From NCBI GenBank assembly GCA_026986775.1, contig JALSNX010000027.1:1-64000 (forward strand): DNA of 64,000 bases, in the 5' to 3' direction. The notes beneath the pieces were generated by a model. The model saw only the letters and a list, made by a program, of their open reading frames with translations, was not told where the DNA came from and did not search any database. Source of the DNA: Caldifarciminota bacterium (lineage in GTDB: Bacteria > Hydrothermota > Hydrothermia > UBA1063 > CAJXJZ01). Positions 30,831-32,417 of this stretch are shown piece by piece. Numbering within the stretch: position 1 is the first letter of the stretch; each line of letters starts with the position of its first letter. Both the position numbers and the translations under genes were made by a program.

Positions 30831-30853
30831 GGGTGGGCTTTTATGGCCCACCC
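30831..30853 (+). terminator. Terminator after the M18 aminopeptidase
   Basis: GGGTGGGC and GCCCACCC form a perfect eight-bp stem with a seven-base loop, then ATTTGTATTT. It ends the second por operon. Confidence 0.8.
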
Positions 30854-30869
30854 ATTTGTATTTCCGAAA

Positions 30870-30941
30870 ATGTAACATTTTATCCTGAAAATGCACCTTT
30901 ACGTTACACATGTGACACAGGAAAGTCAACTTATGTGACAC
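30870..30941 (+). promoter_or_regulatory. Repeated ATGTRACA elements upstream of a sigma-54 promoter
   Basis: ATGTGACAC occurs at 30910-30918 and 30933-30941, exactly 23 bp apart, and ATGTAACAT occurs at 30870-30878. A reverse-oriented ATGTAACA lies at 31031-31038. The 30910 copy is part of a dyad (GTTACACATGTGACAC). Distance from the promoter (115-190 bp) and helical phasing fit an enhancer for a sigma-54 activator. No protein is identified. Confidence 0.5.
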
Positions 30942-31055
30942 TTCTCAATTTTATAACTTAAAGTAACACAATGAGACAACAATTTGATTTTTTAATGTAA
31001 TGAAATAAGCCACAAATTCCCCATAATTTGTTACATTTTTCGCCTCCTGAGATTT

Positions 31056-31072
31056 TTGGCATAAGTCTTGCA
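31056..31072 (+). promoter_or_regulatory. Sigma-54 (RpoN) promoter of the small secreted peptide
   Basis: TTGGCATAAGTCTTGCA matches the -24/-12 consensus (TGGCAC-N5-TTGC) with the invariant GG and GC the required 12 bases apart. Transcription should start near 31083, 23 bases before the start codon, leaving room for AGGAGGTG. No sigma-70 promoter with proper spacing is visible. Confidence 0.8.
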
Positions 31073-31105
31073 TATATTATAGTGTACTTAAACAGGAGGT
31101 GTAAA

Positions 31106-31315
31106 ATGAAGGTCAAAAGAATAATAGCAGGTATGCTGGGTGTAATACTCTCATGGATGATGGTGTTCTGGCCAGCAAGAGTAATGGCTCAGGTGACACA
31201 TATGGGCATTCACAAGCAGGTGATAATGGGTGATGATGATGACGATGATATTCTGCCGCCGCCACCTTATACAGTTCCAAGACCTGAATCCTATACGCCT
31301 GGTACAGGTGGTTGA
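31106..31315 (+). CDS. Small secreted acidic/proline-rich peptide under sigma-54 control
   Basis: The 69-aa product has a clear signal peptide (KVKRIIAGMLGVILSWMMVF, then ARVMA before the predicted cut). The mature part of about 41 residues contains MGDDDDDDIL (six aspartates), a PPPP stretch and a tail ending in PGTGG. It has no cysteine. No family is recognised. The start at 31106 is supported by AGGAGGTG at 31094-31101. An earlier in-frame TTG at 31028 lies upstream of the predicted transcript start and is rejected. It has its own promoter and terminator. An exported signal, metal-binding or matrix peptide, or a modified-peptide precursor, are possibilities without proof. Confidence 0.75.
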   Translation: MKVKRIIAGMLGVILSWMMVFWPARVMAQVTHMGIHKQVIMGDDDDDDILPPPPYTVPRPESYTPGTGG

Positions 31316-31340
31316 TACATTAAAAAGTCAAGTTTCTGTG

Positions 31341-31361
31341 AAGGGTGGCGTTGCCACCCTT
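31341..31361. terminator. Terminator after the small secreted peptide (bidirectional)
   Basis: AAGGGTGGC and GCCACCCTT form a nine-bp stem with a GTT loop, followed by TTACTTTAT. It touches the stop of the convergent GT4 gene, so it may serve both strands. Confidence 0.85.
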
Positions 31362-32417
31362 TTACTTTATCATTGAGATTATATGGATGAGTTTTTGTGC
31401 GCCTTTCTGAATGTCATTGTGCTCACGCACGTATTCTGAAGCCCTATCTCCAATTTTTTCTATTTTTTCAGGTTCATCTATCAGTTGTTTCATATAATCT
31501 GCCAGCAGGATAGGGTTCTGCGGGGGAACGATAAAGCCGTTATAGCCGTGGAGTATCAGGTCTGTGGCAGCTCCGGTGGTAAAGGTTGAGATAGGTGCCA
31601 TTCTGGCGGCCATTCCTTCGGCAAGAGCAACACCCCAGCCATCGTATAGAGAGGGAAACAGAAAAACATCTCCTTTCGCGTATATTTCTGGTAGTTCATC
31701 ATATGAAACAAAACCGTAAAGCTGCACATCATTTGAATAATCTGAAATTCTATTTTTAACAGTCTGCATAAGCGGACCATCTCCAACAATGTGGAGGAAT
31801 ACCCTGTCTCTGTAGTCTTTTCTAATCATTTCAAAAGCCTTAAGAATATCAAAAATTCCTTTTCTCTGTATTAATTGCCCGCTATAAAGGAAGTTTATTC
31901 TATTGTTGAAGCAGTAAGTGCTTTTTTTATTAAATCTTGAGGTATCCACATGGTATGGAAACACGAAAGTGGGTACATTTGTTATTTCATAGTAAAGACG
32001 GGCAGCCAACCTTCCGATTCCAAGAATTGCTCTTGCATTTTTTAGAAGTTGAGTTATTGTAAATTTCTTTAACCATAATTTTTTTATGCGTATCTTTTCA
32101 CCCCAGAATAGCCATGTTTTTTTTCTACCTGAGAGATATACCATTGAGTAAAGGAACTCGGGAAGATTATACCCTGAGATAATAAAAAGTCTGTCCTCTT
32201 TTAAATGTTTTTCTAACTCTACAAGTCTTTTAAAAGCAGGGCCCTTTAGAAATACATGGTCATGTTTTATGTACTTTTCGTAATTCCATTTCCTGTCTGG
32301 TTCTGTCTTTTTTACGTATACTACTTTGATATCCAGTTCCCCGGCCAGTACATTGAACAGGTCCACCTGATAGGGGCTTGGCATGTTTGTGAGTACTGTA
32401 AGACCTTTGAAATTCAT
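31362..32417 (-). CDS. GT4-family glycosyltransferase
   Basis: The 351-aa protein has a GT-B layout: an N-terminal acceptor domain (MPSPYQVDLFNVLAGEL) and a C-terminal nucleotide-sugar domain with NFLYSGQLIQRKGIFDILKAF, HIVGDGPL, FLFPSLYDGWGVALAEGMAA and the E-x7-E region. It probably adds a sugar to a surface polysaccharide or glycan at the cytoplasmic face of the membrane. Donor and acceptor are not known. It is monocistronic and divergent from the Fur-family gene. No ribosome binding site is visible before the ATG. Confidence 0.92.
   Translation of the reverse strand: MNFKGLTVLTNMPSPYQVDLFNVLAGELDIKVVYVKKTEPDRKWNYEKYIKHDHVFLKGPAFKRLVELEKHLKEDRLFIISGYNLPEFLYSMVYLSGRKKTWLFWGEKIRIKKLWLKKFTITQLLKNARAILGIGRLAARLYYEITNVPTFVFPYHVDTSRFNKKSTYCFNNRINFLYSGQLIQRKGIFDILKAFEMIRKDYRDRVFLHIVGDGPLMQTVKNRISDYSNDVQLYGFVSYDELPEIYAKGDVFLFPSLYDGWGVALAEGMAARMAPISTFTTGAATDLILHGYNGFIVPPQNPILLADYMKQLIDEPEKIEKIGDRASEYVREHNDIQKGAQKLIHIISMIK

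Follow-up and report, generated by a model that had tools for sequence, protein, structure and literature searches.

The window, by which we mean the whole 64-kb stretch of DNA that was analysed, includes a gene for a 69-aa product containing six consecutive Asp residues, a PPPP stretch and a PGTGG tail. An earlier note on this DNA had described it as an exported peptide whose gene stands alone with its own RpoN promoter, ribosome binding site and terminator. All of these elements were recovered, and export is suggested by the N-terminus. The gene is present in single copy at a fixed chromosomal place, and gene order is common to the genome under study (G000) and to three other genomes of the same genus (G001, G002 and G003): an M18 aminopeptidase gene comes before, a convergent glycosyltransferase gene after, followed by a Fur-family gene. 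Among named genomes, the best matches of the M18 neighbour reach just 54% and 50% (Deltaproteobacteria and WOR-3 bins). The features of the locus are as follows.

30831-30853, plus strand: terminator-like hairpin of the upstream M18 aminopeptidase gene
30871-30877, plus strand: box 1, TGTAACA, kept in G002 and G003
30903-30909, plus strand: box 2, GTTACAC, partly kept (GTTACG in G002, ATTACG in G003)
30911-30917, plus strand: box 3, TGTGACA, forming an imperfect palindrome with box 2
30934-30940, plus strand: box 4, TGTGACA, 23 bp after box 3, aligning with GTTACAC in G002 and G003
30955-30986, no strand assigned: 32-bp block AACTTAAAGTAACACAATGAGACAACAATT(T), unchanged across three species and holding box 5
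30963-30969: box 5, GTAACAC, within the 32-bp block
30977-30989, minus strand: match to the IHF consensus WATCAANNNNTTR (AATCAAATTGTTG), kept in G003, not in G002
31029-31035, plus strand: box 6, TGTTACA; TTGTTAC is also found near this place in G002 and G003
31041-31049, plus strand: putative anti-Shine-Dalgarno element CGCCTCCTG, from folding and helix lengths, present in three of the four species
31056-31072, plus strand: putative sigma-54 -24/-12 promoter TTGGCATAAGTCTTGCA, from GG-N10-GC spacing and conservation in the orthologues
31094-31099, plus strand: Shine-Dalgarno sequence AGGAGG, kept in the four species
31106-31315, plus strand: 69-aa peptide gene, from the open reading frame, orthologues and codon-position differences
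31340-31362, plus strand: terminator-like hairpin of the peptide gene

When 60 related genomes were searched, the peptide had full-length matches (51-56% identity) in the rest of its genus, three genomes, and in none besides; in each of these the homologue is preceded by the promoter. A lack of conserved homologues would have counted against the earlier note. A profile built from the four sequences retrieved no further relatives, whether run against the class (40 genomes) or the phylum (147), orthologues numbered zero in 143 other genomes of the phylum, and a search of named genomes with the peptide gave no relative. Weak matches outside the genus (L006-L014) were discarded, as they appear to reflect low complexity or likeness to the signal helix and are not recovered by the profile. 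The earlier note knew of no family with this sequence, in agreement with searches of Pfam, NCBIfam and PHROGs, which gave no meaningful match (best PHROGs E values 0.12 and 0.2, both over the signal helix); Rfam returned sub-threshold matches only. By sequence comparison, the peptide family is new and confined to one genus among the genomes searched. That the gene is coding is supported by the four orthologues and by an excess of third-position changes (G003 and G002 differ at 9, 4 and 28 sites in codon positions 1, 2 and 3). As G002 and G003 are closely related, the three species sharing features with one another do not amount to three independent tests.

The N-terminus, read from the sequence alone, resembles a signal peptide that is likely cut after VMA, at residue 28, leaving a 41-aa tail; Sec export would follow from it. 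Kept across the four orthologues are W22-P23, (V/A/S)-x-A at residues 26-28, five to seven Asp residues, LPPPP and two spaced prolines, and the Ala of the expected cleavage site is the same in all four. AlphaFold2, with just four sequences as input, returned a helix at residues 2-40 followed by a tail of low confidence; mean pLDDT was 60.7, and the Asp/Pro tail is predicted to be disordered.

The promoter element matches the consensus TGGCAY-N5-TTGCW and places the predicted +1 at about 31082, which gives a 24-nt leader in which the Shine-Dalgarno sequence begins 12 nt after the start. The orthologues share TGGCAT-N5-TTG(C/T)A, the promoter being retained in all four species with GT for GC at -12 in G001. 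An rpoN gene, whose absence would have spoken against the earlier note, is present in the genome. The pattern TGGCAYNNNNNTTGCW occurs 22 times in the genome versus 0 for a reversed-pattern control; several of these sites lie inside coding sequence, so that not all are promoters, and the pattern search by which they were located misses degenerate ones. At eight of the 22 sites a start codon preceded by a Shine-Dalgarno sequence follows 41-62 nt after the start of TGGCA, and among the products of these eight are a type IV pilin, proteins with a signal peptide or lipoprotein-like features, and the 69-aa peptide. Features of the sigma-54 class are found together (GG-N10-GC spacing, rpoN, activators with AAA+, GAFTGA and HTH elements, and putative upstream sites), and comparison among the genomes makes sigma-54 regulation of the peptide gene well supported. 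Sigma-54 has been described as showing a general bias towards control of the bacterial exterior (PMC3162934). The type IV pilin and the several exported or lipoprotein-like products found here accord with that theme, while the 69-aa peptide family itself differs in being new.

Other sigma-54 sites of the genome were also inspected. The type IV pilin-like gene (MRKGFTLIELLIV...) lies downstream of the promoter TGGCATATAGATTGCT (G000:C28:19823-19838); no TGTNACA boxes were found at this promoter, and the gene was dropped as a candidate for co-regulation with the peptide. The site at G000:C1:83362-83377 precedes a 176-aa signal-peptide-bearing protein that is very rich in Met, His and Arg and whose first 150 residues match nothing in Pfam; about 5 kb from it there is a gene for a sigma-54 activator. 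The site at G000:C9:31410-31425 is the own promoter of a further small exported protein, of 79 aa and likewise without a Pfam match. At two contig ends (G000:C18:191-206 and C21:32870-32885), promoters precede signal peptides that differ from each other but continue into one shared sequence (LQENMTNFPSGWEVHGDWVKSSTRYHSGSYSAKTFSGGAYSN), so the genome has two or more copies of an exported protein family, at which the assembly breaks. Finally, the site at G000:C29:5998-6013 has one TGTTACA box 92 bp upstream and precedes an exported protein without a visible Shine-Dalgarno sequence; this gene is a possible third member of the regulon.

Upstream of the peptide promoter, the earlier note had reported an ATGTRACA repeat. 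Three of its copies stand where they had been placed (ATGTAACA at 30870 and ATGTGACA at 30910 and 30933, the last two 23 bp apart), the inverted copy lies at 31029-31036 and not at 31031, and two related boxes were added, CGTTACAC (30902) and AGTAACAC (30962). The array is above chance: TGTNACA occurs 4 times in 200 bp versus 0.18 expected, and ATGTRACA, counted in both orientations, 4 times versus 0.05 expected, neither count being reached in 5000 dinucleotide shuffles. No 200-bp stretch elsewhere in the window is as dense. G002 and G003 retain boxes at matching positions (with ATTACG at one of them in G003), and as the orthologues keep the core but not the leading A, the repeat is better written TGTNACA/GTNACAC. 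The boxes are not kept upstream of the G001 peptide gene. Two elements had escaped the earlier note, the anti-Shine-Dalgarno element and the 32-bp block. The invariance of the block contrasts with peptides that are just ~55% identical to that of the window in these three species. It was considered as a repeated element and rejected, since it is single copy, and a search of nine genomes allowing up to 3 mismatches showed its 27-bp core at no other place. The match to the IHF consensus overlaps its end.

In layout, the locus resembles the CbrB-activated Pseudomonas promoters crcZ, crcY and PP2810, where several TGTTAC/GTAACA subsites, pointing either way, flank an IHF consensus and are joined by a GG-N10-GC promoter (PMC6296734). 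The likeness consists in such subsites, an IHF-like site and a sigma-54 promoter standing in that order, and is one of layout only. CbrB is a two-component response regulator limited to pseudomonads, whereas the candidate activator described below has GAF, AAA+ and HTH_8 domains only, with no receiver domain found; membership in a CbrB regulon was accordingly rejected.

A pair of TGTNACA boxes lies upstream of one other promoter among the 22, that of an HD-GYP gene (PF13487, cyclic-di-GMP phosphodiesterase-type). This gene is directly downstream of a sigma-54 activator gene (616 aa, G000:C22:45795-47642) whose product, besides those three domains, carries a GAFTGA loop. This pairing recurs in all four species, and every one of them has the boxes and a sigma-54 promoter there. 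Because the only promoter sharing the box pair adjoins its gene, and the pair of genes is conserved in four species, we infer that this GAF-domain protein is the best candidate for the activator of the peptide gene, and with it the search for a cognate activator proposed in the earlier note has a named candidate. In all four species the first HD-GYP box forms the centre of the terminator hairpin of the activator gene. The stem of this hairpin (L140-L143) varies between species and TGTNACA is constant, which lends independent support to the box, and the terminator seems to serve as a regulatory site as well. The G001 peptide gene lacks both the boxes and a full -12 element and the HD-GYP gene still has them, which suggests that control of the peptide gene has been lost in this species.

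It is nonetheless quite possible, if less probable than control by the GAF protein, that another sigma-54 activator acts on the peptide gene; sigma-54 regulation itself would then be right, and the peptide and HD-GYP genes would have like boxes by coincidence. A search for bare TGTNACA pairs in the own genome gave no enrichment (5 versus 6 for the reversed pattern), so that the box alone is not diagnostic, pairs occur elsewhere by chance, and a case for a single activator built on two shared promoters is thin; the genome has about eight further sigma-54 activators. In addition, the 32-bp block is unique to the peptide promoter and missing from that of the HD-GYP gene. A box 15-45 nt from a sigma-54 core was found, across the four genomes, at the peptide gene in the own genome and in G003 and at three others, one inside coding sequence. 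Against coincidence stand the restriction of two or more boxes to just these two of the 22 promoters, and the conservation of the HD-GYP boxes in four species amid changing surroundings. Control by the GAF protein is the reading that we retain, and the link of the peptide to cyclic-di-GMP that it would bring is drawn from these shared promoter sequences.

The element CGCCTCCTG lies just upstream of the -24 element and of the start site and is complementary to CAGGAGGTG (31093-31101). The pairing extends over at least 12 bp in G002 and over 11 bp, including one G-U, in G003. RNA folding predicts that the Shine-Dalgarno sequence is unpaired with probabilities of 0.00, 0.01 and 0.00 in read-through RNA (own genome, G003 and G002, respectively) and of 0.82, 0.66 and 0.68 in the sigma-54 transcript. 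When the upstream sequence was shuffled, none of 200 shuffles was as closed for the own genome and for G002; for G003, 10.5% (0.105) were as closed, which is not significant. G001 has no anti-Shine-Dalgarno pairing and no closure effect, and at the 5% level no closure beyond shuffles was seen at any of ten further sigma-54 promoters, the HD-GYP promoters of all four species among them. A long RNA that is closed and a short RNA that is open are thus predicted for three of the four species, the prediction resting on three related sequences. Such a translational lock is known for the lysozyme gene e of phage T4 (PMC3014915), where it goes with a T4 late promoter and its timing; the peptide gene has a bacterial sigma-54 promoter with an activator, and its lock is predicted only.

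Sequestration of the Shine-Dalgarno sequence in an inactive long RNA, which T4 lysozyme shares (PMC3014915), is typical of type I toxins (for example, PMC6733600). Together with the single long helix modelled at residues 2-40, it raises the idea of a small membrane protein harmful to its own cell, akin to a type I toxin or a bacteriocin, silenced by sigma-54 and the anti-Shine-Dalgarno element, with its N-terminal helix uncleaved and held in the membrane. We regard this as improbable: the gene is single copy at a fixed chromosomal place, the conserved acidic proline-rich tail differs from known type I toxins, the four orthologues share the Ala where cleavage is expected, and there is no conserved antisense promoter, a sigma-70-like match on the minus strand (31105-31076) being absent in G002 and G003. 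For this last reason, assignment to the type I toxin-antitoxin class was rejected. Very improbable is a sigma-70 promoter TTGGCA-16 nt-TATAGT (31056-31083) driving the gene with the sigma-54 match incidental, since despite its 10/12 match G002 and G003 keep the sigma-54 element and have no TATAAT-like -10 or TATAGT, and start-codon spacing is consistent at other sigma-54 genes.

Taking all this into account, the locus is best read as a one-gene, genus-specific sigma-54 unit in which a small Sec-exported peptide would be made only when one activator is on. The GAF-domain enhancer-binding protein would bind the upstream TGTNACA/GTNACAC boxes, and a DNA bend, perhaps through IHF or HU, would bring it to RNA polymerase-sigma-54 at the promoter, which would be opened. 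The transcript from about 31082 would be efficiently translated. RNA entering from further upstream would carry CGCCTCCTG and fold the ribosome site shut, so that leaky transcription would yield no peptide. Taken as a whole, with activator gating, lock and HD-GYP co-control, this explanation is in our estimation somewhat better than an even proposition. The open reading frame, the orthology, the conservation of the promoter, the boxes, their sharing and the complementarity can be read directly from the sequences compared.

As for the function of the peptide, a role at the envelope or surface is in our judgement the most likely, though short of an even chance, because the boxes are shared with the HD-GYP gene and sigma-54 is biased to exterior functions. 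A signalling peptide comes second, as an unlikely but serious reading, and a self-harmful product third, being more doubtful still. The functions suggested in the earlier note (a signal, metal binding, a surface matrix or a precursor of a processed peptide) gained no support from the analysis. As the HD-GYP gene beside the activator matches the peptide gene in its boxes and type of promoter, production of the peptide probably goes together with a change in cyclic-di-GMP, with the peptide serving at the envelope or surface. More tentative is the full proposal, in which the exported Asp/Pro peptide, specific to the genus, would be a new peptide for signalling or for the surface within a cyclic-di-GMP-linked sigma-54 programme, with an anti-Shine-Dalgarno lock embedded in the promoter and translation licensed only by the sigma-54 start.

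Sigma-54 genes already depend on an activator, and we know of no translational lock of this kind described for a bacterial sigma-54 gene, within a limited search of the literature. If the lock is real, its 5' arm would lie upstream of the promoter, and the choice of transcription start would itself be a switch for translation. The peptide and HD-GYP genes would also give a named activator of an uncultured lineage two concrete targets.
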